DNA of 64,000 nucleotides, taken from positions 1-64,000 of the IMG/VR virus record IMGVR_UViG_3300017917_001562; one strand, written 5' to 3'. Of this stretch, positions 34,304 through 63,802 are shown in pieces (the first letter of the stretch is position 1; each line of letters begins with the position of its first letter). This DNA is from a virus. Below the pieces are notes generated by a model. The model saw nothing but the letters and a program-made list of their open reading frames with translations. It was not told the origin of the DNA and ran no database searches. A program made the position numbers and the translations under genes.

Positions 34304-34328
34304 TTAATATTTGTGAAAGAGCTAGTCA

Positions 34329-36943: not shown

Positions 36944-37374
36944 AACAAAAATTTCTAAAAGCATTTATGCAGACAGCAAAAACTTTTGCTGAACTTAGTC
37001 ATGCTCGCAGACTGCATGTGGGTGCTATTGTTGTTAAGGATGATAGAATTATCAGTATCGGTTATAATGGCATGCCTGCAGGGTGGGATAACGATTGCGA
37101 GAATCTAGTAGGATACGATCGTGGTGAGCCAGTACTGAAAACTAAACAAGAAGTTCTTCACGCCGAAACAAACGCCATCAGCAAATTAGCCCGTAGTAGT
37201 GAAAGCGGAGAAGGTGCTACTATGTTCATCACGCATAGTCCCTGCATAGAATGTGCTAAACTAATTTACCAAAGTGGTATTAGCAAAGTATACTACGGAC
37301 AACAATACCGTGATGATCAAGGTGTAAAGTTTTTAGAAAAATGCAACATTGAAATTCAACAATTAGATGTTTGA
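36940..37374 (+). CDS. dCMP deaminase
   Basis: A 144-residue zinc deaminase with GTG start in a GTGA overlap and GAAGG ahead. HAE at residues 74-76 carries the zinc histidine and catalytic glutamate; P-C-I-E-C at 101-105 supplies the other zinc cysteines. HVGAIVVKDDRIISIGYNGMPAG fits the T4 Cd/ComE deoxycytidylate deaminase group, which turns dCMP into dUMP for thymidylate synthase. A thyA gene lies at 41993 on the other strand, so both steps are encoded. Confidence 0.85.
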   Translation: MKQKFLKAFMQTAKTFAELSHARRLHVGAIVVKDDRIISIGYNGMPAGWDNDCENLVGYDRGEPVLKTKQEVLHAETNAISKLARSSESGEGATMFITHSPCIECAKLIYQSGISKVYYGQQYRDDQGVKFLEKCNIEIQQLDV

Positions 37375-40097: not shown

Positions 40098-41041
40098 TAT
40101 GTACTCGATTTAAACCAATTATAATATCTTTCAAATCCTTCGTCAACATCTACTTTAGGATCATATCCAAAGTCATGACGAGCAGCAGTGATGTTTAATG
40201 CACCGCGGCTTGGGAAATCTTGATCTTTATCGCGAACTTCAATGGTACCTTGTCCGGCAATTTTAACTGCTAGCTTGGCAGCATCTAACAATGTATAACT
40301 ATGGCTTTTGGTTATATTGTAAGTTTTGTTAACTGCTCGATCACTTAAAGTTGCTTGTGCTATACCGCGGGCCGCATCTTCTACATAAGTAAAATCTAAA
40401 GATTCGTTTGCACCATTTACTTTAAGCACACCACCACGCATAGCAGTTAGCATAAACTTGGATACTACGCGATCCTCAACATCATACTCACCATAAACAG
40501 CACTGGGACGAATGATTACATGATCAAAACATCCTCGTCTGGTATAATCTTTAGTTAGCCATTCTCCGGCTAACTTCATAATACCATATTGTCCCTGCGG
40601 GTTACAATTTGCTTGTTCAGATACATCGTCAGTAAAGTCACCGTAGACCATACTACTGCTGATATAAACAAACTTTTTTATTTTATGTATGCGTCCTGCT
40701 TCTAATAAGTTAATTAATCCAGTGGTCATTACTTCACTAGCTAAACTAGGATTGCTGTTAACTACTTTTTGTCTAGGAAAGCTAGCAAGATGAATTACTA
40801 CTTGCGGATGAAATGTCATAAACATATTTTCGACGCTGGTACGATTCGTAATGTCTACAGCATGTATGCTGGCGTTTATTCTACGCTTACGCTCTTGTTT
40901 TAGATAATCTAATTCGTCTTTGGGAATAAATCCGTAGTTAGTAAAAGTATCAATGACATAGCATTGATGCCCCTGTTGTTCTAAAAATCTAACAACATTG
41001 TGTCCAATAAAGCCACCGCCGCCTGTTATGAGTATTCTCAT
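40079..41041 (-). CDS. NAD-dependent sugar epimerase/dehydratase
   Basis: A 320-residue extended short-chain dehydrogenase: ITGGGGFIGHNVVRFL at the N-terminus binds NAD; YISSSMVYG near residues 126-134 and YGIMK at 152-156 hold the catalytic Ser-Tyr-Lys set; HAVDITN precedes. These enzymes convert sugar nucleotides (epimerases, 4,6-dehydratases). Paired with the aminotransferase downstream. A small LKW-type gene lies directly upstream with one base between. Exact sugar unknown. Confidence 0.8.
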   Translation of the reverse strand: MRILITGGGGFIGHNVVRFLEQQGHQCYVIDTFTNYGFIPKDELDYLKQERKRRINASIHAVDITNRTSVENMFMTFHPQVVIHLASFPRQKVVNSNPSLASEVMTTGLINLLEAGRIHKIKKFVYISSSMVYGDFTDDVSEQANCNPQGQYGIMKLAGEWLTKDYTRRGCFDHVIIRPSAVYGEYDVEDRVVSKFMLTAMRGGVLKVNGANESLDFTYVEDAARGIAQATLSDRAVNKTYNITKSHSYTLLDAAKLAVKIAGQGTIEVRDKDQDFPSRGALNITAARHDFGYDPKVDVDEGFERYYNWFKSSTYWQKKL

Positions 41042-41042
41042 A

Positions 41043-41384
41043 TTATCCCCATTTTAATTTGAAATAAGTAATATCTTCTGCTCGAAGTTTAGCACTTATG
41101 GCAAATTGGTATCCAAATGTTACGAGATCAGCATGTTTGTGCCAGACTGGAGGTTCTATAGCATGTTCCATGATCCATTTACCTGCTTCACTTTGTTGCC
41201 ATTGCCATAACGGTTCTCCTGCGTACAATACAGGATCTTCGACATCGCTCATTTGAAATTTGTGAACTACAATTTCTTTAATTTCTTGTATTTTAACTTG
41301 ACCGTCGACCGTTACTTCGCGGAAACTGTGCTCCAACTTGTAAGGTTCACTAATTAAATCATATTGGTTTTTAGTGTAAGCCAT
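41043..41384 (-). CDS. LRW-family small protein, isolated member (ends LKWG)
   Basis: A 113-residue protein from ATG 41384 (MAYTKNQYDLISEP). It ends ISAKLRAEDITYFKLKWG, the same [D/E]-x-x-x-F-x-L-[RK]-W end as the array at 45.8-52.7 kb, though it sits 4.5 kb away and is followed by an epimerase gene. Earlier it has HKFQMSDVEDPVLYAGEPLWQWQQSEAGKWIMEHA, which contains the W-x-x-E-x-x array-type segment. A longer in-frame extension upstream exists but lies over the HNH gene end and is unlikely. Function unknown. Confidence 0.6.
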   Translation of the reverse strand: MAYTKNQYDLISEPYKLEHSFREVTVDGQVKIQEIKEIVVHKFQMSDVEDPVLYAGEPLWQWQQSEAGKWIMEHAIEPPVWHKHADLVTFGYQFAISAKLRAEDITYFKLKWG

Positions 41385-41385
41385 A

Positions 41386-41958
41386 TTATATTTCTTTAAT
41401 TTGAAACCCTTTAAAAACACCGCGAGACGGTATTTTCCCATTTCTCATTCTGTTAATAGTTGCATGGGTGTTAGGGATACTAACATTGAATTCTTTTGCA
41501 ATTTCTTTTAATCCCGCCACTATTTTAGTGGAGCCATTAGGATAATAAATTATATATTTTTTTGTATAGGAAAGTAACGATGGATCTATATTTTTAATCC
41601 AACTATTTTCTCCACTGTGCGCTTCTCTATTTTTTTGTATAGTTTCTTGTTTATGAGTTTTACCGAAGAATCCGTTTTTATCACCTGTCCTTGATTTAGC
41701 AGATTCTGACAATCTTCTTTTACCTTCGGGAGTCCAATTTTTTGGTCCTAATAATTTCATATAATTTGCTTCTTCGACGCCTATTTGTTTAGATAACGCC
41801 AAGTAAGCAATATGATCAAATTTATTGCCATATTGTTCATATAATTTTTTATGTGCTTCTGCGTGTTCTTCTATTGTTAGTTTAACTAAATTTTCGGGAT
41901 TATCTAAACCACCCATATGTTTAGGTACAATATGATGTATATGATAAATGGGCTTCAT
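41386..41958 (-). CDS. HNH homing endonuclease with NUMOD3 motif
   Basis: A 190-residue protein. YHIHHIVPKHMGGLDNPENLVKLTIEEHAEAH is an HNH nuclease core; KNGFFGKTHKQETIQKNREAHSG near residue 95 is a NUMOD3-type DNA-binding repeat; the last 50 residues (GLKEIAKEFNVSIPNTHATINRM...) look like a NUMOD1-type helix-turn-helix. It is a free-standing homing endonuclease inserted between thyA and the LKWG gene. CTAAATAC ends four bases before the ATG, too close to be its own promoter. Family secure. Confidence 0.85.
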   Translation of the reverse strand: MKPIYHIHHIVPKHMGGLDNPENLVKLTIEEHAEAHKKLYEQYGNKFDHIAYLALSKQIGVEEANYMKLLGPKNWTPEGKRRLSESAKSRTGDKNGFFGKTHKQETIQKNREAHSGENSWIKNIDPSLLSYTKKYIIYYPNGSTKIVAGLKEIAKEFNVSIPNTHATINRMRNGKIPSRGVFKGFQIKEI

Positions 41959-45811: not shown

Positions 45812-45840
45812 ATTATATAGCCAAAACGGTTTTATGTCAA
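45812..45840 (-). promoter_or_regulatory. Perfect sigma70 promoter (minus strand)
   Basis: TTGACA at 45835-45840 and TATAAT at 45812-45817 (read on the minus strand) are 17 bases apart. The spacer holds the small palindrome AAAAC-C-GTTTT. It sits in the 48-base gap between the end of the LRW array and the Cys-rich gene, so it likely starts the transcript through folA/thyA. An AAGGA site follows. Confidence 0.85.
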
Positions 45841-45842: not shown

Positions 45843-46130
45843 TTACATCCATTTTAATCTAAACCAATTGGCATCTTCTGGAGATTCAAAAGCTATTTTT
45901 ACGCCTTGAATTTTATATTCACTTTGGCAATTTTCTTTTAACCAATCTCTTTTTTGTTGACATAAATTATCTGTGACCATATGATTGGTAACATGAACAA
46001 CATATCCGGACCCAAGAGCATTGTTTACCAATGTCCACCCCGATACTTCTACCCAAACACTAAAGTCTATTTCGTATTGAACCTGCTCAGCTAGTTGATT
46101 TAGAATGTGTTCTTGTATATTATTGTTCAT
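45843..46130 (-). CDS. LRW-family small protein (last array gene, ends LKWM)
   Basis: A 95-residue protein from ATG 46130, six bases after GGAG in the end of the upstream gene. CQQKRDWLKENCQSEYKIQGVKIAFESPEDANWFRLKWM shows the complete family end: D-W-L-x-E-N-C, then F-E-S-x-E-D-A-x-W-F-x-L-K-W. It is the downstream-most member, followed by a promoter rather than another coupled gene, and uses K (AAA) not R (AGG) before W, so no ribosome site is formed there. Function unknown. Confidence 0.7.
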   Translation of the reverse strand: MNNNIQEHILNQLAEQVQYEIDFSVWVEVSGWTLVNNALGSGYVVHVTNHMVTDNLCQQKRDWLKENCQSEYKIQGVKIAFESPEDANWFRLKWM

Positions 46131-46132
46131 TG

Positions 46133-46354
46133 TTAACTCCATCTAAGACAAAAAGCTGTCAGTGTCGGTTTATCGGGCAACACCACAGTCATACCTTGGA
46201 CCTTACTTTTATTTTGTTTACACCACACTTGTAGATCATCGTAGTGTATATTCCAGTATGCTATGTCTGACAGCACAATCAACAATTCGCCGCCTGTTAC
46301 TAGCGTATCAGGAATAATGAATCTTCGTCGGTGACCGTTGTCAAGTAAACTCAT
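46133..46354 (-). CDS. LRW-family small protein (ends LRWS)
   Basis: A 73-residue protein from ATG 46354 (MSLLDNGHRRRF), in an ATGA overlap with the upstream stop; a longer TTG-led form is unlikely. YDDLQVWCKQNKSKVQGMTVVLPDKPTLTAFCLRWS shows the W-C-[KR]-[QE]-N and F-x-L-R-W-S pattern. Its last codons (AGA TGG AGT) give the TGGAG ribosome site of the next gene. Confidence 0.65.
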   Translation of the reverse strand: MSLLDNGHRRRFIIPDTLVTGGELLIVLSDIAYWNIHYDDLQVWCKQNKSKVQGMTVVLPDKPTLTAFCLRWS

Positions 46355-46710
46355 CTTACTAAGTTTAACATGGTTTGATATTGTTGCCAAAGATCTTGAA
46401 GTCCGGGATGTTGATGTCTAAGCCTAGTTTCTTCTTCTTGCTTATATACAATTTCTTGAATATCTCGCTTTAGGTCTACTGCATGTTGCTTTTCTTCCAA
46501 CCATTGATCGTGTTCCATTAAAGCACGAAAACGATCTTCAGGCATGTGAATTTCTACACAAGTAAGATCCTCATATGGATTATTGTTATAAATGTTTGGA
46601 TCACTGGCCCATATTTTATAATCAACTCGTCTTACTCGTCTATGCATTTTTGTACTAGGCACTACATAAGCATCATATTTGTAACAAAACTCTGTAAAAT
46701 CTTTTGTCAT
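46351..46710 (-). CDS. Unrelated 119-aa protein within the array
   Basis: A 119-residue protein lacking the LRW ending. It has MTKDFTEFCYKYDAYVVPSTKMHRRVRRVDYKIW, a PEDRFRALMEHDQWLEEKQHAVDLKRDIQEI helix and many charged residues. It begins after TGGAGTTAAA in the upstream gene's end and ends ATGA-overlapping the next. No family recognised; it may be an unrelated gene caught in the array. Confidence 0.55.
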   Translation of the reverse strand: MTKDFTEFCYKYDAYVVPSTKMHRRVRRVDYKIWASDPNIYNNNPYEDLTCVEIHMPEDRFRALMEHDQWLEEKQHAVDLKRDIQEIVYKQEEETRLRHQHPGLQDLWQQYQTMLNLVR

Positions 46711-46711
46711 T

Positions 46712-46996
46712 TTAACTCCATTTTAATAACCATAAAGCTATATCGTCTTTATGTGTAAATCCCCACCATTCTTGTTGATTATGAAAGTCGGAACTGTAAG
46801 ACAGAATTTGGCCGCGGCAATGCAAATTACACCAAGTCCAGTATTCGTTGGAAAATTTAACAGGTTTAACACAAACAAACCATTTACTGGGCTTGTGCGG
46901 TTTAACTTGTTCTGGCACCCAAAGTCCACTATCATCGTCACCAAGTCCTGGGCGAATATCGTTCCAAAATTCTTTGAACTGCTTTCGATTTATCAT
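46712..46996 (-). CDS. LRW-family small protein (ends LKWS)
   Basis: A 94-residue protein from ATG 46996 (MINRKQFKEFWNDI), overlapping the upstream stop as ATGA. FSNEYWTWCNLHCRGQILSY gives the W-x-W-C segment and WWGFTHKDDIALWLLKWS the end: D-D-I-A-x-W-L-L-K-W-S. The downstream end encodes TGG AGT TAA, serving the 119-residue gene. An in-frame extension upstream is a shadow of the neighbour. Confidence 0.7.
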   Translation of the reverse strand: MINRKQFKEFWNDIRPGLGDDDSGLWVPEQVKPHKPSKWFVCVKPVKFSNEYWTWCNLHCRGQILSYSSDFHNQQEWWGFTHKDDIALWLLKWS

Positions 46997-47205
46997 GACC
47001 ACTTCAACAATGTTAACAAGGCTTTTTTCTCGTCTGCGAAATGCCAAGTAGTACCATAAGTGGGGCTCCTTAGATTCATATCATATGTACGCCACCAGTC
47101 TTGTTTAAACTCACCTACATAAGTTTCTAACCACTCATTAAATGATACATCTGGTACTAATGAACGATGAAGACCCTTGAGTTGACTTTGATGTATTTTA
47201 TTCAT
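46993..47205 (-). CDS. LRW-family small protein (ends LKWS)
   Basis: A 70-residue protein from ATG 47205 (MNKIHQSQLKGLH). It includes FNEWLETYVGEFKQDWWRTYDM and ends FADEKKALLTLLKWS, with TTG AAG TGG TCA TGA as the coupling junction. D-E-K-K-A-x-x-x-L-L-K-W-S fits the common end. Function unknown. Confidence 0.65.
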   Translation of the reverse strand: MNKIHQSQLKGLHRSLVPDVSFNEWLETYVGEFKQDWWRTYDMNLRSPTYGTTWHFADEKKALLTLLKWS

Positions 47206-47207
47206 AC

Positions 47208-47438
47208 TTACGCCCATCGCAGTTTCCATATTACATATAGTTCTGGAGTCAAGTATAAAGCAGTATTACTGTCGGGATCATCTCGCATTGGTCGCCATAA
47301 ATCAGGATCTTGCACTCGGATCCACTCAAACATACCCTCGGGGGTCCTAAATCCTTCAAAGCTTGGATCATCAAAACAATATGTTTTGTATCCGTGTGTA
47401 AAAAGTTCGTAACGACCGTTGCGTGGCAAATGACTCAT
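47208..47438 (-). CDS. LRW-family small protein (ends LRWA)
   Basis: A 76-residue protein from ATG 47438 (MSHLPRNGRYELFTHG), ATGA overlap, with AAAGGAAA in the upstream gene end. MFEWIRVQDPDLWRPM is the family W-x-[RK] segment and the end is LTPELYVIWKLRWA. CGA is used for R, so no AGG-type ribosome site forms; the next ATG follows GGGCGTAAGT. Confidence 0.65.
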   Translation of the reverse strand: MSHLPRNGRYELFTHGYKTYCFDDPSFEGFRTPEGMFEWIRVQDPDLWRPMRDDPDSNTALYLTPELYVIWKLRWA

Positions 47439-47647
47439 CGGTTTCCTTTTAAAATAAACCACACAGCATCCTGCTCACGCTCAAACCACACTGTTCGACT
47501 ACCGTAGTAGAGATAGAACTTACCAGGCGAATCCATTAACTGCAATTCACGCTTGAGTTGGGCATAGTTCCAATTTAGGTTGATTGTGCGTAGAACAGGA
47601 TGCCAGTGCTGTTGCCGAACCTTTTTATCTTTGTTCCAATATTTCAT
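47435..47647 (-). CDS. LRW-family small protein, altered end (LKGNR)
   Basis: A 70-residue protein from ATG 47647 in a junction of the usual AGGTGGTCATGA type. FEREQDAVWFILKGNR follows the family ending through F-I-L-K, but W-S is replaced by G-N-R; the replaced codons (AAA GGA AAC CGA) create an AAAGGAAA site for the next gene. This suggests the ribosome site was kept while the peptide changed. Confidence 0.6.
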   Translation of the reverse strand: MKYWNKDKKVRQQHWHPVLRTINLNWNYAQLKRELQLMDSPGKFYLYYGSRTVWFEREQDAVWFILKGNR

Positions 47648-47871
47648 GACCACCTTAATATAAACCAACTCATATCTTTACGAGCATCCGGATAATCTAA
47701 AAAATAAAAATTAATTAAATCGTGTGTAATAGTATTACCATCACTGTGATATTGATTAGTAATGTAATGTGGACAGTTTTTCTTTGCCCATTGAATAGCA
47801 CTATACAAATCAAGTTTACTACGGTCTACTGTTATGTAGTTATCAGTAATCTTCATATGCCAGTTGTCCAT
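47644..47871 (-). CDS. LRW-family small protein (ends LRWS)
   Basis: A 75-residue protein from ATG 47871 sharing its A with the upstream TGA (TGATG). AIQWAKKNCPHYITNQYHSDG has the W-x-x-x-N-C element and FYFLDYPDARKDMSWFILRWS the ending. Junction with the next gene is TTA AGG TGG TCA TGA. Confidence 0.7.
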   Translation of the reverse strand: MDNWHMKITDNYITVDRSKLDLYSAIQWAKKNCPHYITNQYHSDGNTITHDLINFYFLDYPDARKDMSWFILRWS

Positions 47872-48083
47872 CAACTCCACCTTAACAAAAATGCTGTATA
47901 ATCTTCTTCATGCTCAAATACCGCAGTAACAAACTTGTTGTCTTTGTCCTCGACCATTTTGCAGCCAAACTCCTGTAACCATTTTTTTCGGCTTTCTTCT
48001 AGTCCCAACGACTGAACACCAAGTGTTTCACGCCACGCACGACGAAACATTGAATGATGCTTTTTTAAATCTACTTCAATCAT
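47871..48083 (-). CDS. LRW-family small protein (ends LRWS)
   Basis: A 70-residue protein from ATG 48083, ATGA overlap with the remains of the split upstream gene. KKWLQEFGCKMVEDKDNKFVTAVFEHEEDYTAFLLRWS has the W-L-Q-E-x-G-C and F-E-H-E-E-D-x-x-x-F-L-L-R-W-S features. The upstream AGGTGG ribosome site survives although the gene that carried it is broken. Confidence 0.7.
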   Translation of the reverse strand: MIEVDLKKHHSMFRRAWRETLGVQSLGLEESRKKWLQEFGCKMVEDKDNKFVTAVFEHEEDYTAFLLRWS

Positions 48084-48121
48084 GACCACCTCAATGCTAG
48101 CATTGTAGCATGATTTGCATA
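48080..48121 (-). pseudogene. 3' relic of an array member split by an endonuclease gene
   Basis: In frame on the minus strand, 48121-48080 reads Y-A-N-H-A-T-M-L-A-L-R-W-S-stop, very close to the KDATMFALRWS ending of the member at 49836. Upstream the frame is closed by TGA. It lies just beyond the GIY-YIG gene, and the matching 5' part of a gene lies on its other side, so this is read as the cut-off C-terminus. Confidence 0.65.
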
Positions 48122-48138
48122 TTTTCGTCTAACAAATT

Positions 48139-48146
48139 GATAAATA
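48139..48146 (+). promoter_or_regulatory. Late-type motif before the GIY-YIG gene
   Basis: GATAAATA on the plus strand, 62 bases before the ATG at 48209 and outside the minus-strand operon. It resembles a T4 late promoter core with one mismatch. An AAAGGAA ribosome site follows closer to the gene. Tentative. Confidence 0.3.
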
Positions 48147-48208
48147 AAAATGCGAGTCGCGATGCGTCAACATCCACCCGCCCTAACAGTTGAAAAGGAA
48201 CTATCAGC

Positions 48209-48583
48209 ATGAATATTTATTCCCCGGCACGACCCCCATCTGGGTATTATGTTTACGCATATATAAGATCAAAAGATTCGAAAACAGGTAAAGCAGGGAC
48301 TCCGTATTACATTGGTAAAGGCAAGGGCAATCGAGCCACTCGACGTCACGGAAAAAACCCTATTCCAGATTTTGATTTCATAGCAATATGTGAAGAAAAT
48401 TTAACTGAAATTGGTGCATTAGCGATTGAACGATTCCTTATACGTGTTTGGGGGAGAAAAGATATCGGTACCGGAATTTTGTTAAACAGAACAGACGGCG
48501 GGGATGGGACATCGGGTAGATCAGCAGAGTCAATCTGCACCCAAACTGCGCCACCAAGGTCTACCCATCTTGGATCATTATGA
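48209..48583 (+). CDS. GIY-YIG homing endonuclease, probably truncated
   Basis: A 124-residue protein on the strand opposite the array. [37 protein letters not shown] is the GIY-YIG core with the Y-Y-V-Y-A-Y and Y-Y-I-G-K-G elements; [16 protein letters not shown] supplies the catalytic glutamate region, followed by [13 protein letters not shown]. After this, about base 48520, the frame runs into sequence that is antisense coding for the split array gene, so residues 104-124 are not original. The usual C-terminal DNA-binding part is missing. It may be a decaying or minimal element. Confidence 0.8.
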
Positions 48584-48732
48584 TCTACAATTAAAGGGCC
48601 CACAGGCCACCTTACTTTGATAACAACACCAGGAACAAACCTCCACCAAAGTTTTTGCCAAATGTTTAATCCGCAAGGCAAATATCTGCCAGACGGCAAT
48701 TGAAATAAACTTTTAATTTCCCACTTAGCCAT
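48523..48732 (-). pseudogene. 5' part of an array gene interrupted by the GIY-YIG insertion
   Basis: Starting in a TAATG overlap with the upstream member, the frame encodes about 70 plausible residues (MAKWEIKSLFQLPSGRYLPC..., ...[15 protein letters not shown]), then enters the antisense of the endonuclease and ends without an LRW motif. The nominal open frame to 48346 is therefore chimeric. Together with the C-terminal relic at 48080-48121 it represents one disrupted gene. Confidence 0.6.
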
Positions 48733-49133
48733 TATGAATATTTCAATGCTATCATTACGGCATCTTGCTCATTGTTAGTTGCTACAAACACTTTATCCTC
48801 ACCGCCTAGTTCGTTTACTGTCCATTCCCAATCAGTAGAAGGCTCACACATAACACGATGAAACTCCCAAACAGCATTTTCACCTAAAGCACGAGCAGGC
48901 CAAAAATAATGTTTTGTATCTTCTCGCACGGTCCACCCAAACGGTTGTTCTAAGTTAAAAAACTTGTTAGGATCAACGATAACAATATGTTTAAAATTTC
49001 TAAAAATATCTTTGATACGAGTAGCACGGACATTAACGGTTTGTTCATACCATGCCTTATACTCACGCTCTGCTTTTGTATAACCAGTTGTGCGAGTAAG
49101 ATACCAATCTTTGATATTGTCGAATAAAATCAT
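48732..49133 (-). CDS. LRW-family protein, longer member (ends LKYS)
   Basis: A 133-residue protein, the longest array member. An N-terminal addition (MILFDNIKDWYLTRTTGYTKAEREYKAWYEQTVN) precedes IVDPNKFFNLEQPFGWTVRED and the ending VFVATNNEQDAVMIALKYS, with Y for W. N-E-Q-D-A-V-M-I-A-L-K-Y-S clearly parallels the K-D-A-T-M-F-A-L-R-W-S type. Stop overlaps the next (now broken) gene as TAATG. Confidence 0.65.
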   Translation of the reverse strand: MILFDNIKDWYLTRTTGYTKAEREYKAWYEQTVNVRATRIKDIFRNFKHIVIVDPNKFFNLEQPFGWTVREDTKHYFWPARALGENAVWEFHRVMCEPSTDWEWTVNELGGEDKVFVATNNEQDAVMIALKYS

Positions 49134-49136
49134 GGT

Positions 49137-49376
49137 TTATTCTGCTAATACTTCAAACAGTTCAGCATACTGTGTTTCGGGTTCATCAACGAATCCAGTA
49201 TAGACCCATACTCTGCGACAATAAACTTTTTTAAGCCACACCCAACGGTTGTTAATAGTTTTATGCGGCAACAACACAAATGTTTCAACCCAGTCGTGTT
49301 CTACCGCGGTTATGTCGCCTATGTTTGGGATAAACATTGCTCCTCTAACTATTTCTTTAAATAGGGAAAAACTCAT
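49137..49376 (-). CDS. 79-aa array gene without LRW end
   Basis: A 79-residue protein from ATG 49376 in the usual AGGTGGGCATGA junction. It has MSFSLFKEIVRGAMFIPNIGDITAVEHDWVETFVLLPHK and ends EPETQYAELFEVLAE, lacking L-R-W. It may be a member with a changed C-terminus or an unrelated passenger. Function unknown. Confidence 0.5.
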   Translation of the reverse strand: MSFSLFKEIVRGAMFIPNIGDITAVEHDWVETFVLLPHKTINNRWVWLKKVYCRRVWVYTGFVDEPETQYAELFEVLAE

Positions 49377-49594
49377 GCCCACCTTAACGCTAATAAAATG
49401 TAAATTTTTTCATGAACATCAAATACATTATAGTTGATATGCCATTTTTCGTCAATGTTTTGAAACCATTGTTTATCTTCCTGCTCACAGAAAGATGTTC
49501 TTAACCAAATACTAACTTCTTTTTTACAAGATATAGTATACCAAGATTCATTATTAACTATAGCCTTAGTCCTTACTTTGAAGTTAGATTTCAT
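49373..49594 (-). CDS. LRW-family small protein (ends LRWA)
   Basis: A 73-residue protein from ATG 49594 (MKSNFKVRTKAIV). Family features: SIWLRTSFCEQEDKQWFQN and the ending FDVHEKIYILLALRWA. Start overlaps the upstream stop (ATGA); the end encodes AGG TGG GCA TGA for the next start. Confidence 0.7.
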   Translation of the reverse strand: MKSNFKVRTKAIVNNESWYTISCKKEVSIWLRTSFCEQEDKQWFQNIDEKWHINYNVFDVHEKIYILLALRWA

Positions 49595-49839
49595 ACCCAC
49601 CTCAACGCAAACATAGTATATTTTTTCTCATCTACCACTGCAACCTGCACAACTTCGTATCCGTGCCTACCATATATATCTTGTTTAGGACATAGATCTA
49701 ATCTGAGCCCGGCTGTTTGTTCAATATGATACTTAAACCCAAGCATACGGTCCTCTCCAGAACTGGGCCAATCTGGGTCATATTCCATATAACATTTGTT
49801 TAGCAAACGATTTACGGATTTTGTATCTATAAATCTCAT
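49591..49839 (-). CDS. LRW-family small protein (ends LRWV)
   Basis: An 82-residue protein from ATG 49839 (MRFIDTKSVNRLLNKC). The middle DPDWPSSGEDRMLGFKYHIEQ is unlike its neighbours, while VVQVAVVDEKKYTMFALRWV matches the common end closely. AGG TGG GTA TGA forms the junction with the next gene. Confidence 0.7.
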   Translation of the reverse strand: MRFIDTKSVNRLLNKCYMEYDPDWPSSGEDRMLGFKYHIEQTAGLRLDLCPKQDIYGRHGYEVVQVAVVDEKKYTMFALRWV

Positions 49840-50048
49840 GAGCTCCACCTCAATGCAAACATAGTTGCATCCTTGCTATTGCGGAAGTAATAATCCACAC
49901 CCTTCATTGAGGGCACTCGATTCCAGCGACCTTTAAACGGGCCCATGTTTTCGCCTAGCCATTCCTCAATCTTGTAATGCCCGGCGTGATCCATGGGCAT
50001 AGAGATAGGAATCTTTGCTGGCCAAATTTCTTTCTTTAGTTGTCTCAT
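49836..50048 (-). CDS. LRW-family small protein (ends LRWSS)
   Basis: A 70-residue protein from ATG 50048. HYKIEEWLGENMGPFKGRWNR is a clear E-W-L-x-E-N-x-G segment and YYFRNSKDATMFALRWSS the end, one residue longer than the rest. The junction reads AGG TGG AGC TCA TGA. Best single match to the split gene's relic. Confidence 0.7.
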   Translation of the reverse strand: MRQLKKEIWPAKIPISMPMDHAGHYKIEEWLGENMGPFKGRWNRVPSMKGVDYYFRNSKDATMFALRWSS

Positions 50049-50335
50049 GACCACCTCAACTCTAAGAATGTTACCATTTCCGGAGGAACTAAGAATACAC
50101 TTTCAAACCATAGGTACCATGTGAACTTTTCTCGTGAGAAATGTTCGTTCATCCACACAACCTCTGGACCTAATACATCTACGCAAACATAATCTTCATA
50201 TCCCATGGGAGGGGCACGGCCAGTATCAACACGCGGCGGAATCAGGAATGTTGATTCATATTCGGCCAACCATTTAGCGTGAGCGGCTAGTTCGTTATCC
50301 GGTATCAGAGCAACACTTTGGAAATTTACTTTCAC
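50045..50335 (-). CDS. LRW-family protein with GTG start (ends LRWS)
   Basis: A 96-residue protein starting at GTG 50335 (GTGA overlap, AGGTGGTC ahead). KWLAEYESTFLIPPRV near residue 22 and WYLWFESVFLVPPEMVTFLELRWS near the end look like two related half-repeats (E-S-x-F-L-[IV]-P-P). The ending is L-E-L-R-W-S. Confidence 0.65.
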   Translation of the reverse strand: MKVNFQSVALIPDNELAAHAKWLAEYESTFLIPPRVDTGRAPPMGYEDYVCVDVLGPEVVWMNEHFSREKFTWYLWFESVFLVPPEMVTFLELRWS

Positions 50336-50565
50336 GACCACCTCAACATAAACCAAGTATACGCTTGTTCATCATAAAAGTCAATATACCTATCACCGTA
50401 ACCGCTTAACGGATTTATGGGTTTGGCTATCCAAAAGTTTGCCGACCAGTCCATGAGAGCATGATTGATTTCTTCCTCGCCAAAACTATCTGGTAAAAAG
50501 TTATACCACCATCTTGGGATTTCAGATGGATGGCGATCTTCTTCAAATATCTTTATTCTAATCAT
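50332..50565 (-). CDS. LRW-family small protein (ends LRWS)
   Basis: A 77-residue protein from ATG 50565 (MIRIKIFEEDRHPSEIPRWW). NHALMDWSANFWIAKPINPLSG is its central W-containing segment; YIDFYDEQAYTWFMLRWS ends it. Junction AGG TGG TCG TGA leads to the GTG-started neighbour, the only GTG of this exact type. Confidence 0.7.
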   Translation of the reverse strand: MIRIKIFEEDRHPSEIPRWWYNFLPDSFGEEEINHALMDWSANFWIAKPINPLSGYGDRYIDFYDEQAYTWFMLRWS

Positions 50566-50771
50566 GACCACCTCAACACAAACATCATATAATCATCTAC
50601 ACGGCGAAATTCAAATACACCTTCACTAACATAACGCCAGTTCTGTTCCTTGAATCGTCCTCTACACCATTCCATCGCAGGCAACCAGCCCCAGTGCTCA
50701 TACTCCTTGTGTGCAGGTTGAGGCACACTTGCAATAATCCAACTGTTGATAGGATTTCTTGGCAATTTCAT
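50562..50771 (-). CDS. LRW-family small protein (ends LRWS)
   Basis: A 69-residue protein from ATG 50771 (MKLPRNPINSWIIASV). MEWCRGRFKEQNWRYVSEGVFEFRRVDDYMMFVLRWS is one of the most typical members: E-W-C-R-G-x-[FN], F-E-F-x-x-x-x-D-x-x-M-F-x-L-R-W-S. Confidence 0.7.
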   Translation of the reverse strand: MKLPRNPINSWIIASVPQPAHKEYEHWGWLPAMEWCRGRFKEQNWRYVSEGVFEFRRVDDYMMFVLRWS

Positions 50772-51022
50772 GACCACCTCAGAATAAACATACTAGCGTC
50801 TTTTTCTTTTTCAAACATCCAGATGCTACCTCGACCTTGATGGTTACCTTGTAAGTTTTCTCTGCACCATTTTTTGATTTCGTATATCTGCGTCTCGTGC
50901 ATCCTTGCGGGCCACTTTATCTCAACCTTTGTATAGCCTAGTTTAATCATCATGTCGCACATGATTTCCCAGTCTGTTTCTTCCTGGAGGGTTTTTGCAA
51001 GGTCTTGTTTTATTATTGTCAT
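50768..51022 (-). CDS. LRW-family small protein (ends LRWS)
   Basis: An 84-residue protein from ATG 51022 (MTIIKQDLAKTLQEE). IYEIKKWCRENLQGNHQGRGSIWMFEKEKDASMFILRWS shows the clearest K-W-C-R-E-N-L-x-G segment of the array, then F-E-K-E-K-D-A-S-M-F-I-L-R-W-S. Confidence 0.75.
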   Translation of the reverse strand: MTIIKQDLAKTLQEETDWEIMCDMMIKLGYTKVEIKWPARMHETQIYEIKKWCRENLQGNHQGRGSIWMFEKEKDASMFILRWS

Positions 51023-51240
51023 GACCACCTCAACATAAACAAAGTAGCATGTGCGGGATCAGAAAACCACATTACATATCCAGAGCCGGGTTCTAGTCGC
51101 CAGTAGTGTTCGCTAGCTGGTTTTCCATATTGACAGTTATTAGGACTACCAAAAGTTTTTAAACACCATGCCCACCAAACAGGCAGGCCTTGTTGATTAT
51201 ATACATGTCTATGTTTCATGGGTACAATTACAATATTCAT
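51019..51240 (-). CDS. LRW-family small protein (ends LRWS)
   Basis: A 73-residue protein from ATG 51240 (MNIVIVPMKHRHVYNQQG). PVWWAWCLKTFGSPNN is the W-C segment; YVMWFSDPAHATLFMLRWS the end, with A-H-A-T-L-F-M-L-R-W-S. Junctions on both sides are the standard TGAGGTGGTCATG type. Confidence 0.7.
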   Translation of the reverse strand: MNIVIVPMKHRHVYNQQGLPVWWAWCLKTFGSPNNCQYGKPASEHYWRLEPGSGYVMWFSDPAHATLFMLRWS

Positions 51241-51482
51241 GACCACCTCAACGCAAATAACATAGCCTTTTTTTCGTCTACGATAGAGATCATAGTATCA
51301 CCTAACCTTGCGCTATACACTCCCCACTCATCGCCCGCTTCAGGCTCAATATCAATGCCGTCAGGCCAACTATTTTTTAACCAACGGCCACCGGGTCCTA
51401 CATTGTTGTATAACCAATGTTCTAACTCTACAAACTGTATCCGGTGTTTGCTCATAATGGTAGTAGCATCAAAGTTAATCAT
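51237..51482 (-). CDS. LRW-family small protein (ends LRWS)
   Basis: An 81-residue protein from ATG 51482 (MINFDATTIMSKHRIQF). FVELEHWLYNNVGPGGRWLKNSWPDG gives the W-L-x-x-N-x-G segment; ISIVDEKKAMLFALRWS the end, like the D-E-K-K ending at 49591 and 46993. Those three share a V-D-E-K-K / A-D-E-K-K variant of the motif. Confidence 0.7.
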   Translation of the reverse strand: MINFDATTIMSKHRIQFVELEHWLYNNVGPGGRWLKNSWPDGIDIEPEAGDEWGVYSARLGDTMISIVDEKKAMLFALRWS

Positions 51483-51727
51483 GACCACCTCAGCGTTGTA
51501 AGCATCATGTCTTGCTCAAATTCAAAATAAAATCGGCCGGTTGATTCACAAAAACTATATCGGCCATGGCTGGGATAATTGTTACACCAGTTTACAATAG
51601 CTGCTTCTTTAACGAGCCATTCTAAAGTACCAGTATCGTAACTATCGAACTCTTCCTTATTCCAAAAGTTAGTAGAGTCTACAACATATTTGAAATTTTC
51701 TATGTCTAAGTTGGCTATTTTCTTCAC
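51479..51727 (-). CDS. LRW-family small protein, GTG start (ends LRWS)
   Basis: An 82-residue protein starting at GTG 51727 (GTGA overlap with the LRWV stop upstream). EWLVKEAAIVNWCNNYPSHGRYSFCESTGRFYFEFEQDMMLTTLRWS carries the W-C-N-N segment and F-E-F-E-Q-D-x-M-L-x-x-L-R-W-S. The D-M-M order differs from the usual D-A-x-M. Confidence 0.65.
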   Translation of the reverse strand: MKKIANLDIENFKYVVDSTNFWNKEEFDSYDTGTLEWLVKEAAIVNWCNNYPSHGRYSFCESTGRFYFEFEQDMMLTTLRWS

Positions 51728-51936
51728 ACCCACCTCAACAGTGCAAACATTCTATCTTTTTCATTTGTAATATACCACAAGTCAACACCATTAAGTGTGC
51801 CCTGGTATTCTGTTTCTATAGAATTTTTTTCACACCACTTATGAAAGTTTATTCTTTGCTGTGAGCTAACAGTAAAGCCCCGCGGATCACCTACTAATTT
51901 TACTCTGCCCTTTTCTGCAAAAACTTTAGTGGTCAT
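51724..51936 (-). CDS. LRW-family small protein (ends LRWV)
   Basis: A 70-residue protein from ATG 51936 (MTTKVFAEKGRVKLVG). INFHKWCEKNSIETEYQGTLNGVDLWYITNEKDRMFALLRWV has K-W-C-E-K-N and N-E-K-D-R-M-F-A-L-L-R-W-V. The end TTG AGG TGG GTG TGA provides the next GTG start. Confidence 0.7.
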   Translation of the reverse strand: MTTKVFAEKGRVKLVGDPRGFTVSSQQRINFHKWCEKNSIETEYQGTLNGVDLWYITNEKDRMFALLRWV

Positions 51937-52151
51937 GCCCACCTCAGTGCAAACCACTCTTTGTTTTCTCTAACTTGAAATATGTATCCGTTAGAGCCTG
52001 AACTTAGAAGAAAGTATTCTACTTTGTTTTCGCGCATCCAACCGTAGATGTCAAGCCACTCCTGAAATGTGCGAACAAGGTAAGTAGGGTAACCTGCCCA
52101 ACCTGGGTAGCTAGTAGATTCGACTTTCATATTCATTGTGTTATCAATCAT
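51933..52151 (-). CDS. LRW-family small protein (ends LRWA)
   Basis: A 72-residue protein; ATG 52151 lies in the end of the lipoprotein gene (8-base overlap), while internal ATGs at codons 6 and 8 are possible because no Shine-Dalgarno is evident. FQEWLDIYGWMRENKVEYFLLSSGSNGYIFQVRENKEWFALRWA holds the W-M-R-E-N segment and the ending. AGG TGG GCA TGA junction. Confidence 0.65.
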   Translation of the reverse strand: MIDNTMNMKVESTSYPGWAGYPTYLVRTFQEWLDIYGWMRENKVEYFLLSSGSNGYIFQVRENKEWFALRWA

Positions 52152-52482
52152 GAAAATCGTAATCGTAGCAGTGTCTAATTTCGTGTCCTAAATTTGAAGT
52201 GCTGGTGTTGGTACCTGTAATTACAGTACACTGATCACCTCGCCAAACAGCACAACCAACAATTCTATTTTTACCAAATCTACCATTGGTGCTTTTATCA
52301 CAGATTTGTTGCAGCTCTTGGTCAGACACTTGACGCCAAGTAATAGTTCTTACTCTTGTTTGTGATTTAGCAGTACTGATGTGTTCGGCGTTGTATTCCC
52401 ATGCCTTAACGGGGTTGACAGGTTGAGCACTACAACCAGATACTGCTGCAACAATCGCAAAAACTAAAGACATTTTTTTCAT
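52144..52482 (-). CDS. Putative lipoprotein with HExRHC motif
   Basis: A 112-residue protein with a signal peptide (MKKMSLVFAIVAAVSGCSA) whose V-S-G-C is a lipobox, so the mature protein would be lipid-anchored. It ends STSNLGHEIRHCYDYDFHD; H-E-I-R-H resembles the HExxH zinc site of metallopeptidases and is followed by H and D. C60, C79 and C86 may form disulfides. It is the only exported protein inside the array. The ATG uses a ribosome site from the LRWN codons upstream (AGG TGG AAT TAA). Possibly acts at the host envelope; activity unproven. Confidence 0.65.
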   Translation of the reverse strand: MKKMSLVFAIVAAVSGCSAQPVNPVKAWEYNAEHISTAKSQTRVRTITWRQVSDQELQQICDKSTNGRFGKNRIVGCAVWRGDQCTVITGTNTSTSNLGHEIRHCYDYDFHD

Positions 52483-52483
52483 G

Positions 52484-52708
52484 TTAATTCCACCTTAACA
52501 AAAACATTGTCAAATCTTTTTGATTTTTAAATTCAAACATATCGTAGGCAATCCTGTAACCACAATGATTTTCCCTGCACCATTCTACCATTTCAGCTAT
52601 AGGATAGCCTAAATAATGACCTTCTTGATCAAGTATAAATTCATCCACCGAAATTTTTACAGCAAGCCTAAGCCTTGGATCTGGTTCAATGGCGTAGGCT
52701 TTGCTCAT
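52484..52708 (-). CDS. LRW-family small protein, first array gene (ends LRWN)
   Basis: A 74-residue protein, the promoter-proximal member. ATG 52708 shares its A with the TAA of the VWA gene (TAATG). PIAEMVEWCRENHCGYRIAYDMFEFKNQKDLTMFLLRWN is highly typical: E-W-C-R-E-N-x-C-G and F-E-F-x-N-x-K-D-x-x-M-F-L-L-R-W. The array thus continues the VWA operon. Confidence 0.75.
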   Translation of the reverse strand: MSKAYAIEPDPRLRLAVKISVDEFILDQEGHYLGYPIAEMVEWCRENHCGYRIAYDMFEFKNQKDLTMFLLRWN

Positions 52709-53985
52709 TATGCTTTGGCCAATTCCTTGGCTCGTTCATAAATTGCCCAAACACCAAAGGGAGGTTCTGCTTGCTCGTTGCCTTTGATAATGAATACAGT
52801 ATCGCAGTATTCGCTGTCACCCCACTCACCAAAAGGCATACCGTCAGTGAACATGATAAACTTCTTAGGTTGAATATCATTTTCCTTCATGTATTCCCAA
52901 TTAGCCATAAAGTCAGTACCACCACCACCTTGGGGCTCATAGGTAAGAATGTCCTCTAGTGATTCTGAACTGTAAACTTGGTGATTATACACTGCGGTGT
53001 CAAAACTCCACACTTGAATCTTGTACTCGTCATAGGCTTCCATAATGCCTTTGATCTCAGCCATAAAAGCCTTGATGTCTTCCTCGCCAATAGAACCCGA
53101 AGTGTCAATGGCAATACAAACATCAATCTGTTGACCCGGGATCATACCAGGCATAACAGCATCCAAGTGCCAGCTACGGCGTGAAGGGCGCAACCAAGTA
53201 AAGTCGTTTTTAACGGTGCTTTGGATTTGTTGTTCCAACAGCTCACGCCAGTTAACTACAGGCCTAGTCAAGTCTTTGATCAGACGCTTAACACCTGACG
53301 GCAAATTGCTGGCGCCTGTGGCCTGTGCGGCCTGTAGCAGTGCTTCGCGGATTTCGTCTTTGATGGCCTGTCGTTCTTCTTTGCTGAGACGGGGACGACC
53401 TTTGCCTTCTTTCTCGTCACCATCTTCGTCGCTACTGCCGTTGTCACCATCACCGTCCAAGTGCTCGTCTAACAGTTGATCCATCAAATCGCTGATGTCA
53501 ATTTTTTCTGCATTTTCATAAAGGTCGTCGTAGACTTCTTCAGCACTCCAACCTTTGTATTTGACATCATACAGGCAAGGGGTAATTTTGTCACCAATCC
53601 GTTGCTCAATCAAATCACTGTTAACACAATAGTCAGCGGCACAATTAAACAAACGGCGATCGCGGTCGCCATTACGACCCATATGGTCATAGACATTGTG
53701 CAGAACTTCGTGGCCAAACAAGAACTCAAGTTCTTTGGGTTTCAGTTTATTAACGAACTCAGTGTTGTAATAAAATTTACGACCATCGGTTGCAGCAGTA
53801 CCAAGCCAACTGTCTGCATTAACCAATTGCAGTCTGGTAGCAAGGTTACCAAAGAATGGTGCCTTAAGCAAGAGACCGATACGAGCAGTAGTCAATTTTT
53901 CACGCACTGCACGATCCAAAGCAGGATCGGTATTGTCAGTGAGACGACCTGCGATGTCTTTTTGTTTACTGTCTGATGTAGCCAT
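52708..53985 (-). CDS. VWA-domain putative metallopeptidase (DUF2201-like)
   Basis: A 425-residue protein. HEVLH at residues 92-96 is an HExxH zinc motif in a DUF2201-type N-terminal domain; an acidic low-complexity linker (DGDGDNGSSDEDGDEKEGKG) occupies about 178-198; the VWA domain starts VCIAIDTSGSIG, with the MIDAS D-T-S-G-S at 294-298. Such proteins pair with MoxR ATPases, here encoded just upstream at 54410. Together they may remodel or cleave a target. Starts after an AGGAGCAG ribosome site behind a near-consensus promoter. Confidence 0.85.
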   Translation of the reverse strand: MATSDSKQKDIAGRLTDNTDPALDRAVREKLTTARIGLLLKAPFFGNLATRLQLVNADSWLGTAATDGRKFYYNTEFVNKLKPKELEFLFGHEVLHNVYDHMGRNGDRDRRLFNCAADYCVNSDLIEQRIGDKITPCLYDVKYKGWSAEEVYDDLYENAEKIDISDLMDQLLDEHLDGDGDNGSSDEDGDEKEGKGRPRLSKEERQAIKDEIREALLQAAQATGASNLPSGVKRLIKDLTRPVVNWRELLEQQIQSTVKNDFTWLRPSRRSWHLDAVMPGMIPGQQIDVCIAIDTSGSIGEEDIKAFMAEIKGIMEAYDEYKIQVWSFDTAVYNHQVYSSESLEDILTYEPQGGGGTDFMANWEYMKENDIQPKKFIMFTDGMPFGEWGDSEYCDTVFIIKGNEQAEPPFGVWAIYERAKELAKA

Positions 53986-54010
53986 TTATCTGCTCCTTGT
54001 TAATGTATAT

Positions 54011-54039
54011 ATTATAACACACTTGCGAATTTTTGTCAT
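54011..54039 (-). promoter_or_regulatory. Sigma70-like promoter before VWA gene and array
   Basis: On the minus strand ATGACA (54034-54039) and TATAAT (54011-54016) are 17 bases apart; the -35 differs from TTGACA in one base. The spacer contains AATTCGCAA, shared in part with the MoxR promoter. It sits in the gap before the VWA gene and may drive the whole array. Confidence 0.75.
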
Positions 54040-54052
54040 TAATACCAAAGTA

Positions 54053-54346
54053 TTACAACCATTTAAGTGTAAACAGTTCTAGTTCTTGATTTGTTTTAAG
54101 ATAAATTAATGGAGTATCGTATTTAATATCCTCTAATCTATAAGACCAAGATTGGTTCCTAGTAAATTTTGCATGACTTAAATGAAGGTTGAGTTGGACA
54201 CCCATACCCCATATTTCATTGCACCAATGACACCATTCTACAAATTTAGGAATTCTAGAGTCAAAGGGTTCGTGCAGTTCAATCCTGTATGCAAAATGCC
54301 CATATCCTCCATGACGGCGATCTAATTTTACAACCTTGGCGGGCAT
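54053..54346 (-). CDS. LRW-family small protein between MoxR and VWA genes (ends LKWL)
   Basis: A 97-residue protein: KFVEWCHWCNEIWGMGVQLNLHLSHAKF with the E-W-C segment, and LIYLKTNQELELFTLKWL at the end. It is a clear relative of the array members but stands alone, followed by a promoter, not by a coupled gene, and uses K-W without a downstream ribosome site. Its place between MoxR and VWA genes hints at a link to that pair. Confidence 0.65.
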   Translation of the reverse strand: MPAKVVKLDRRHGGYGHFAYRIELHEPFDSRIPKFVEWCHWCNEIWGMGVQLNLHLSHAKFTRNQSWSYRLEDIKYDTPLIYLKTNQELELFTLKWL

Positions 54347-54365
54347 GATTGTTACTAGTAATTGG

Positions 54366-54409
54366 GGACTTACGGGAGAAAGGAGTTGGAAAGCCCTGCC
54401 CCGTAGTCC
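54366..54409 (-). terminator. Imperfect hairpin just after the MoxR stop
   Basis: GGACTTACGGG (54366-54376, plus strand) pairs with CCCGTAGTCC (54400-54409) with one bulged base. The stem begins two bases past the MoxR stop codon. There is no U-tract, so it is either an attenuating or RNA-protecting structure, or a weak terminator, between MoxR and the LKWL gene. Confidence 0.4.
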
Positions 54410-55519
54410 TTACTTGCTGTTGGCGGCTACAATGTATTTGCCAAATCGCTTATGGAACTCGTCGAAATGTTTCAACTTGCCAGGAATGAAAGGCAGATTG
54501 TAGGTAGTCAGTGCAACACGAGCACCCATAACAGTCAATTCGGTAGTGAAATTGTCCATCATGTAACGGAAGAAGAAATCTGCCATACTGTTAAATTTCT
54601 CGTCAGGCTTGCCGTTATTTTTTAGCACATGATCCTGAAGTTCATAGCAGAGGTTCACAGTTAGTGAGTACATGGCTGAAATTTCTTTGACCTTAAGATC
54701 AGTGACTTTGCCGTCAAGAATGTCAATAGGCTTAGGCAACTGACCTGCAACCTTGCGGTGCGCCATAAACTTAACTGCAACACCTTCGCCCACAGCACCT
54801 GAAATCAAGTCAGTAAGTTCGCTGTCAGTGCAGTCATTGTCCTCCAACAGTTCACTGACAAAAGTCCACGAACGAGGAGTAGCGAACGCACGGCTTGAAC
54901 TACGGGGGTCAAAGTCGTAAAGGTCTTGTTTAGCAAAACCAATATAACCAATCACATCTGAACTGATGCGGTTAATGGTAGCCCATTGCTCCCACGATTC
55001 GTGATCAACTCGCATCTCCAAGTGAACGAAGCGGTTAGCCAACGGAGCAGGCATACGATAAGTAACGCCTTTATCAGTTTCACGGTTACCTGCGGCAATC
55101 ACAACCACATTGTCAGGCAGTGTATACTTGCCAATACGGCGGTTCAAAACCAGCTGATAAGCTGCGGCCTGGATGCTGGGTGCAGCACTGTTCATTTCAT
55201 CAAGGAACAAAACAACCACAGGATACTGTTTGGCCAGTTCTTCACTGGGCAAGTCGATTGGGGGAGCCCAATCCATCAAACCATTGTCTTTGTTGTAATA
55301 AGGAATACCACGCAGGTCAGTGGGTTCCATCTGTGCCAAACGAAGGTCAATCATAAGACCGCCCATTTCTTCAGCAATACTAGCAACCAGTTCGGACTTG
55401 CCGATGCCTGGAGGACCCCACAGGAACAGGGGTCGTTTTTTCTTAAAACACTTGGTAATGGCACGACGAGCGGTCAGTGCGGTTACAGTGCGATTTTCAG
55501 TAATTGAGTCTTTCGACAT
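54410..55519 (-). CDS. MoxR-type AAA+ ATPase
   Basis: A 369-residue ATPase: Walker A GPPGIGKS at residues 35-42, Walker B VVLFLDEMNSA near 100, the sensor GNRET near 145, and RFVHLEM with the arginine finger near 160. MoxR ATPases act as chaperones with VWA proteins, matching the metallopeptidase-VWA gene downstream. Start follows AAAGGAGAA. Substrate unknown. Confidence 0.85.
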   Translation of the reverse strand: MSKDSITENRTVTALTARRAITKCFKKKRPLFLWGPPGIGKSELVASIAEEMGGLMIDLRLAQMEPTDLRGIPYYNKDNGLMDWAPPIDLPSEELAKQYPVVVLFLDEMNSAAPSIQAAAYQLVLNRRIGKYTLPDNVVVIAAGNRETDKGVTYRMPAPLANRFVHLEMRVDHESWEQWATINRISSDVIGYIGFAKQDLYDFDPRSSSRAFATPRSWTFVSELLEDNDCTDSELTDLISGAVGEGVAVKFMAHRKVAGQLPKPIDILDGKVTDLKVKEISAMYSLTVNLCYELQDHVLKNNGKPDEKFNSMADFFFRYMMDNFTTELTVMGARVALTTYNLPFIPGKLKHFDEFHKRFGKYIVAANSK

Positions 55520-63756: not shown

Positions 63757-63772
63757 CAAGTATACCCCCAAT

Positions 63773-63780: not shown

Positions 63781-63802
63781 CTTTTGGCGGTATATTTGCT
63801 GG

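Follow-up and report, generated by a model that had tools for sequence, protein, structure and literature searches.

Avs1-4 of bacteria sense the terminase and the portal of phages (PMC12931631), and the bacterial systems CapRel and Thoeris are reported to sense the major capsid protein (PMC9712102, PMC12578639). Lit/Gol is a further known sensor of this protein; the Gol region is described as the most conserved region of the T4 capsid protein gp23 and binds EF-Tu (PMC3014915). Avs, CapRel and Thoeris are sensors on the host side, whereas the genes described here are on the phage side: an array of 22 small genes on the minus strand of positions 1-64,000 of the IMG/VR virus record IMGVR_UViG_3300017917_001562 (full record 108,581 bp), this 64,000-nucleotide stretch being called the window below. 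The proteins have different N-terminal parts in front of a common C-terminal domain that ends in L-[RK]-W, and in about 40 of 899 members of the family, none of them clearly in the window, the N-terminal part holds short pieces that come from the core proteins of the phages themselves, with terminase and capsid, the triggers of the three systems, among the sources. Among the closest described systems is the Gp23-type major capsid protein (PF07068 / PHROG_138), since about 20 members have N-terminal parts homologous to three of its segments, with E-values down to 2.6e-15, but unlike Gp23 the members hold pieces of 25-60 residues fused to an unrelated C-terminal domain and are not capsid proteins. 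Recurrent core-protein signature segments on one carrier domain are a gene architecture for which no precedent was found, and we know of no kind of system into which many small genes sharing one domain and carrying such pieces would fall.

The array and its protein family

All 22 open reading frames (ORFs), from 52708 down to 45843, carry the shared ending at the low coordinates listed further below, with the C-terminal signature FxF-x-[DN]-E-x-D-A-x-[WLM]-F-x-L-[RK]-W. A profile of the 25 C-terminal residues, to which only loci elsewhere contributed, matches 20 of these 22 ORFs at E<0.02 (best 1.6e-9) and the ORF at 48732 at 0.28; the ORF at 50045, which ends LELRWS, is not among the matches at E<0.5, yet has the exact ending and the gene seam. 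Reversed window ORFs reach an E-value of 0.17 at best, and the remaining 44.6 kb of the record gives zero matches below E 0.5. The array is thus above chance, since the outside-built profile recovers its members and the controls and the rest of the record do not match. There are two extra, weak matches in the window, at 41043-41441 (E 0.027) and 54053-54346 (E 0.043). The initial annotation had described a tandem array of about 22 paralogues with a common ending and N-terminal halves that vary between members, and this description of a single paralogous family stands. Of the size range given there, 69-133 codons, the upper limit is right but the lower becomes 67 once the starts are corrected, and the number of about 22 holds for the window but not as the scale of the family, as large relatives have 38-43 members.

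The family was harvested with one narrow DNA query, F-x-L-R-W-S-stop-ATG, followed by profiles around the viral matches. The DNA pattern is present in more than 120 IMG/VR stretches among the matches listed, and 18 stretches have it in bacterial and archaeal genomes totalling 257 Gb. An array is found in a single one of these 18, a 6.4-kb contig of phage-like appearance. The profiles gave at least 825 members, at least 768 of them distinct, at no fewer than 121 loci, with up to 20 per short locus. With a looser cut-off the large fetched records contain 38 (364 kb), 39 (374 kb), 43 (240 kb), 21 (333 kb) and 14 (338 kb) members, and Sinorhizobium phage Phosso has 44 ORFs in 390 kb, a few of which are alternative starts or overlapping frames. 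A different profile at E<=0.01 gave 23-24 members in Phosso, 3 in PA5oct/Paride, 4 in Atu_ph07 and none in SCTP-2 and RaK2. The proteins are about 60-150 residues long and are carried by jumbo phages, in which this large unnamed family makes up a sizeable share of the small genes of the clade; the cultured carriers (Phosso, Paride/PA5oct and Atu_ph07) make it open to immediate testing. Two longer proteins, L044:2866-3738 (290 residues) and L123:4681-5463 (260 residues), have the LRW domain at the C-terminus and no recognised N-terminal domain.

A single-protein search of IMG/VR found no relative, and tblastn with natural members against 50,697 cultured phage records gave nothing. Consensus queries against cultured phages matched only PA5oct-group phages and Phosso, and the second query was tuned on those phages, which makes its E-values circular. 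No family common to the members was found in Pfam, PHROG or NCBIfam (stray single-member bests 0.031, 0.01 and 0.0073), PADLOC against 148 members from all loci gave single-member matches only (best 4.9e-4), and the family profile against PDB sequences gave only the AcrIIC5 chains 8jb9 and 8hj4, both the same type of protein, with partial coverage and non-significant E-values of 0.37-0.38. Membership in a known named family was rejected, as Pfam, PHROG, NCBIfam and PDB hold no match for the family, and the profile search that had been proposed at the outset therefore agrees with the opinion voiced there that no described family has this signature. No paper on such a family was found in the open-licence literature.

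Two subfamilies were modelled by AlphaFold2 with input alignments from the window and the fetched loci. The model of 50768 has the elements H3-27 E31-34 H43-56 E61-64 E67-70 H73-83 (predicted local distance difference test, pLDDT, 85.8; predicted template modelling score, pTM, 0.70), and that of 51933 has E4-6 E16-19 H22-34 E38-45 E48-55 H57-64 (pLDDT 93.1, pTM 0.79). The two proteins are about 20% identical and their models have a beta-alpha-beta-beta-alpha core in common, as compared by element order and not by superposition, with a last helix that in both ends L-R/K-W. The structure prediction suggested with the first description thus gave the same predicted core in two diverged members and not unrelated folds. 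In the consensus of the domain, a variable N-terminus leads into a strand and a helix that contains W-[CL]-x-E-N, after which come two strands and then E-x-D-A-x-x-F-x-L-R-W. Foldseek against PDB gave nothing at E<=0.001 for either model. In BFVD it found uncharacterised proteins from uncultured Caudovirales phages (E 2e-6 to 3e-4 and template modelling score about 0.6-0.8 for the best four) and the uncharacterised protein A0A2L0UZW8 of Atu_ph07 (E 0.015, probability 1.0), which are probably unrecognised members of the same family.

Gene seams and the shared ending

Most junctions in the array are 4-base overlaps, and the repeated TTGAGGTGGTCATGA (TTG-AGG-TGG-TCA-TGA) encodes L-R-W-S-stop and at the same time contains the Shine-Dalgarno sequence GAGGTGG and the ATG of the next gene. 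Because the end of one gene thus contains both the ribosome-binding site and the start codon of its successor, translational coupling of the array genes is very likely. Translation likely begins at the ATG, or in some genes a GTG, that lies within the 4-base ATGA overlap, while GTG starts giving 'MVM' N-termini were rejected, as these GTGs fall inside the ribosome-binding site. Among 594 members ending [LMI][RK]W, the arginine codon is AGG in 337 of the 467 with a stop codon overlapping or abutting the next ATG, against 42 of the 127 others, and the last residue is mostly one with a codon able to end in A, because the ATGA overlap demands an A. Since the AGG codon and the A-ending codon track the overlap, LRWS is partly a ribosome-binding site written into protein. 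The altered end of 47435, which had been pointed out from the start, is LKGNR because the Shine-Dalgarno sequence of the following gene reads AAAAGG in place of GAGGTGG.

The strong shared end is therefore in part a DNA seam made of a Shine-Dalgarno sequence and the next start codon, but it is also conserved as protein. L[RK]W is retained, with other codons, in members without an overlapping downstream gene, and the conservation continues upstream of the end with F at -11 in 72% and F at -2 in 85% of members, in addition to E/D positions. The ratio of non-synonymous to synonymous substitution rates (dN/dS) in 31 orthologous pairs, not all of them independent, is 0.24 over the last 26 residues and 0.28 over the N-terminal part that precedes them. 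A pure RNA or DNA signal as the cause of the C-terminal conservation was rejected on the strength of the non-overlapping members, the variety of codons and the dN/dS values, and the C-terminal domain is a real protein family since L[RK]W outlives the overlap, dN/dS is about 0.25 and a common fold is predicted. The purifying selection on both halves between orthologues also argues against fast diversification by point mutation, and the initial suggestion of rapidly diversifying proteins is not borne out in that form. Many members are separate old orthologous lineages, each with its own conserved N-terminus, and the diversity arises from these many lineages together with the swapping of N-terminal pieces.

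Pieces of core proteins in the N-terminal parts

The pieces derive from the Gp23-type major capsid protein (three segments), the Walker A motif of helicase/terminase, the active-site motif NLCxEI of ribonucleotide reductase, and from two further enzymes, family-B DNA polymerase (DxxSMYP) and GH19 endolysin (GRGxxQxTG), with the donor proteins named by Pfam as terminase, DnaB helicase, GH19, family-B polymerase, ribonucleotide reductase and Gp23. When 148 diverse long members were compared with PHROGs and Pfam, the sole recurrent known family was the Gp23 major capsid protein, matched by 7 members, and the matches, where displayed individually, were all N-terminal (PF07068, E 1.2e-14 to 1.4e-8, including 9.3e-12 and 1.2e-11). 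A scan that was not motif-selected, with 123 core-protein profiles from seven phages of the clade against the 899 N-terminal parts at E<=0.05, gave 37 matches, of which 19 are to the capsid protein, spread over three separate profile sites (48-108, 151-213 and 322-357), and 5 to helicase, all at Walker A. Equal numbers of shuffled N-termini and of other small ORFs gave 8 and 12 matches respectively, never more than two to one family. Random capture of domains from any gene is not supported, as the capsid protein recurs far above the others and the control matches are scattered.

Six motifs were also counted in the members, in 100 shuffles (mean) and in 5006 other small ORFs of the same phages, and as they were picked after viewing the sequences the counts show enrichment and are not a blind test: NLCxE[IV] 8 / 0.02 / 1, R[QRG]xGK[ST] 10 / 0.12 / 2, DxxS[ML]YP 3 / 0.01 / 0, GRGxxQxTG 2 / 0 / 0, VQ[PHT]M 11 / 0.23 / 0 and Y[ACT]PY[IV]P 4 / 0 / 0. 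The reductase piece reads NLC[KQ]E[IV] in every chimera against NLC[CTV]EI in the phages' own enzyme, and this shared derived K/Q points to an old capture followed by retention. Pieces can be combined: Walker A, or a relic of it, is followed by NLC[KQ]EI in five phages, NLCKEI by YAPYIP in another, and in L116:935-1321 the endolysin piece GRGTIQITG runs straight into GRQTGKS. Similar C-terminal halves bear different pieces in different phages, and 49373 in the window is without the N-terminal DIET and Walker A piece that is present in its orthologues L102:1007-1342 and L093:694-1038.

On T4 gp23 the capsid segments lie around residues 71-126, to which the commonest of them, fragment A, aligns, around 254-307 and near the C-terminus, and they are by far the commonest identifiable pieces. 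Their protein identity to the donor is graded from 79% to barely visible, most being about 30-55% identical, which makes homing-site DNA decoys an unlikely explanation. The members hold segments only (e.g. profile columns 2-55, 134-198 and 301-354) and not the length or domain order of the full HK97 fold of Gp23, which is encoded in full length elsewhere in G001-G004, G006 and Phosso. In the window, 50768 and 45843 each have an N-terminal helix that looks, in register but faintly, like one of the major capsid protein (50768 with E 3.5e-4 and probability 37%), a likeness that for 50768 is suggestive only, and because these are the only two cases the account of chimeric pieces rests on the relatives. 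A fusion of a capsid piece outside the LRW family is found in Phosso (L153, 182280-182546 and flanks), where a protein of 226 residues has capsid fragment A (RVMPQIMAHNIVGVSPMAAPKGNIF) and a collagen-like stretch and no LRW domain.

Possible function

The arrays could be a library of mimics or decoys against cellular sensors of conserved phage components, a reading to which we give a probability of roughly 0.3. In this reading the constant C-terminal domain would serve as a stable module for carrying or docking, the variable N-terminal part would offer a surface for recognition, and the mimics would bind those host-cell proteins that detect conserved parts of the phage and so blunt them. A member with no recognisable piece would be either an older, diverged one or one with a different target, and with identical seams genes could enter, leave or change place as cassettes. 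The reading is given this weight because the sources are conserved phage components, of which terminase and capsid are established triggers of sensing, and because the commonest capsid piece comes from the same first quarter of gp23 as the EF-Tu-binding Gol region; the resemblance to Lit/Gol exclusion, where fragment A falls in the same conserved first quarter, may serve as a lead only. The fuller proposal, that about 40 coupled mini-proteins display signature peptides of capsid, terminase/helicase, reductase, polymerase and endolysin as decoys against intracellular immune sensing (or competing phages), is a little more doubtful still.

Several points speak against mimicry. About 95% of the N-terminal parts have no recognisable source, and within the window just the helices of 50768 and 45843 are faintly capsid-like (probability 37%). 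Known sensors read folded proteins, a mimic could activate sensors instead of blocking them, and to our knowledge pieces of helicase, reductase, polymerase and endolysin are not sensor epitopes. The pieces that are kept could be recombination relics, visible merely because the motifs are conserved, and promoter-like matches across the array region are at chance level. If mimicry is true, the arrays would reveal which surfaces of core proteins bacteria sense, and if it is false they would still be a model of new phage genes built from fragments.

About as probable as mimicry, and if anything slightly more so, is an ordinary hypervariable host-takeover array in which each N-terminal surface binds a different host protein and the core pieces are incidental building material. 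Clusters of small host-takeover genes are common in large lytic phages, and the many old orthologous lineages with their own conserved N-termini and the purifying selection on the N-terminal halves (dN/dS 0.28) are in its favour; this explanation ranks so high because most N-termini, about 95%, have no recognisable source. It leaves unexplained the recurrence of the same three capsid segments, Walker A and NLC[KQ]E[IV] across many phages, and a reductase piece that keeps N, C and E and yet shares the derived K/Q beside the cysteine. The two explanations are nearly tied, and decoys or mimics are preferred here because they alone account for the recurrent pieces.

A gene nursery is unlikely. On this view core genes would be broken, perhaps by homing endonucleases with a preference for conserved motifs, and the freed fragments would be built into the array at its repeated seams; the array would be a by-product of recombination from which some proteins become useful. 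The identical seams, the endonuclease-like ORF inserted in the array of the window (48209-48583), the fragment junctions inside conserved motifs, such as that of GRGTIQITG into GRQTGKS in L116:935-1321, and capsid pieces that fade by degrees from 79% identity until they can barely be seen are all consistent with it, but the pieces are kept across distant phages, the reading frames stay open, and both halves of the proteins are under purifying selection. Decidedly improbable is a role as subunits or accessory proteins of one assembly, e.g. capsid-associated or injected internal proteins, targeted by the capsid-derived pieces. The three major-capsid segments are by far the commonest identifiable pieces, but those of helicase, reductase, polymerase and endolysin misfit a virion role, 3 copies in Paride/PA5oct against about 44 in Phosso would be odd for an assembly, and in PA5oct some neighbours of the member EST35_0274 are marked as seen by mass spectrometry, but EST35_0274 itself is not. 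That the shared end is mainly a nucleic-acid feature and the proteins matter little is hardly credible, for although the L-R-W-S codons hold GAGGTGG and the next start and the AGG and final-A codons follow the overlap, about 15 residues upstream are conserved (F-x-F...E-x-D-A-x-x-F), as are the W-C-x-E-N element and the predicted fold, and members without an overlapping gene keep L[RK]W with other codons at a dN/dS of about 0.25, so that the codon and dN/dS results have already largely refuted it.

Annotation of the array

The features of the array and the two outlying weak members are as follows, from upstream to downstream on the minus strand for the array.

52484-52708, minus: array member 1, first gene, ends LRWN, next gene not overlapping (profile E 1.8e-8)
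52144-52482, minus: small predicted lipoprotein (signal ending SGCS) with a GHEIRHC motif like a zinc-peptidase site, between members 1 and 2 (sequence)
51933-52136, minus: array member 2, start probably ATG 52136 or 52130 (profile; 66% identical orthologue in another phage)
51724-51936, minus: array member 3, overlaps member 2 by 4 bases (profile)
51479-51727, minus: array member 4, GTG start within the 4-base overlap (profile)
51237-51482, minus: array member 5, ATGA overlap, seam GAGGTGGTCATGA (profile)
51019-51240, minus: array member 6, ATGA overlap (profile; orthologue 65% identical)
50768-51022, minus: array member 7, structure predicted (AlphaFold2; capsid-helix comparison)
50562-50771, minus: array member 8, ATGA overlap (profile)
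50332-50565, minus: array member 9, ATGA overlap (profile; 90% identical orthologue in L009)
50045-50335, minus: array member 10, GTG start in overlap, ends LELRWS, weakest to the profile (ending and seam)
49836-50048, minus: array member 11, top profile score of the window (E 1.6e-9)
49591-49839, minus: array member 12, ATGA overlap (profile)
49373-49594, minus: array member 13 (profile; orthologues L102:1007-1342 and L093:694-1038)
49137-49382, minus: ORF of 81 residues without the LRW domain, translationally overlapped with member 13 (ORF list)
48732-49133, minus: array member 14, long form of 133 residues, ends LKYS (E 0.28, weak)
48083-48732, minus: split array member, 5' part MAKWEIK... 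from 48732, 3' remnant RRKYANHATMLALRWS to near 48083 (intact relatives L069:345-743 and L074:3214-3612)
48209-48583, plus: putative GIY-YIG-type endonuclease ORF inserted in the split member (motif YYVYAYI...YYIGKGKG only)
47871-48083, minus: array member 15 (E 2.2e-8)
47644-47871, minus: array member 16, TGATG junction (profile; orthologue in L009 87% identical)
47435-47647, minus: array member 17, altered end LKGNR (E 3.5e-7)
47208-47438, minus: array member 18 (E 0.019; orthologues elsewhere)
46993-47217, minus: array member 19 (E 9e-6)
46712-46996, minus: array member 20, ends LKWS with an AAA codon, next gene not overlapped (E 0.0069; orthologue 59% identical in L109)
46133-46354, minus: array member 21 (E 0.0063; orthologue 53% identical in L109)
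45843-46130, minus: array member 22, last gene, ends LKWM, no gene seam, N-terminal EID helix of capsid-helix type (E 1.4e-6)
54053-54346, minus: outlying weak family member, ends LKWL (E 0.043; orthologues ending LRW)
41043-41441, minus: outlying weak family member, ends FKLKWG (E 0.027)

Non-members are interspersed in the array at 52144-52482, 49137-49382 and 46351-46710. Member 14 resembles, in a by-eye comparison, L047:3742-4209, which ends LRW. The split gene was correctly recognised at first as a member of the array, and it is broken by the plus-strand ORF 48209-48583; Rfam gave no match to an intron RNA in the array. A perfect σ70 consensus promoter, TTGACA-17-TATAAT, is located at 45812-45840 (minus strand) just past the last array gene and reads into 45794 onwards.

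Neighbouring genes

Directly upstream of the array is a pair of genes for a VWA-like protein and a MoxR-type ATPase (52708-55519, minus strand), the ATPase being closest (51%) to that of the PA5oct-group phages. Two ORFs resemble mobile endonucleases by motif, one HNH-like (41386-41958, minus strand) and one GIY-YIG-like (63136-63861, minus strand). Several genes like those for radical S-adenosylmethionine (SAM) enzymes, with CxxxC-type clusters, are found among unknown genes at 25887-33228 on the plus strand, and are followed by a carbamoyltransferase-like (34431-35906), an aminotransferase-like (38988-40097) and an epimerase-like gene (40079-41041), so that the region 25887-41041 may be a modification cluster unusual for a phage. 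A QueE-like radical-SAM gene of the 7-deazaguanine pathway (61121-61996, minus strand) suggests that the phage DNA may be modified.

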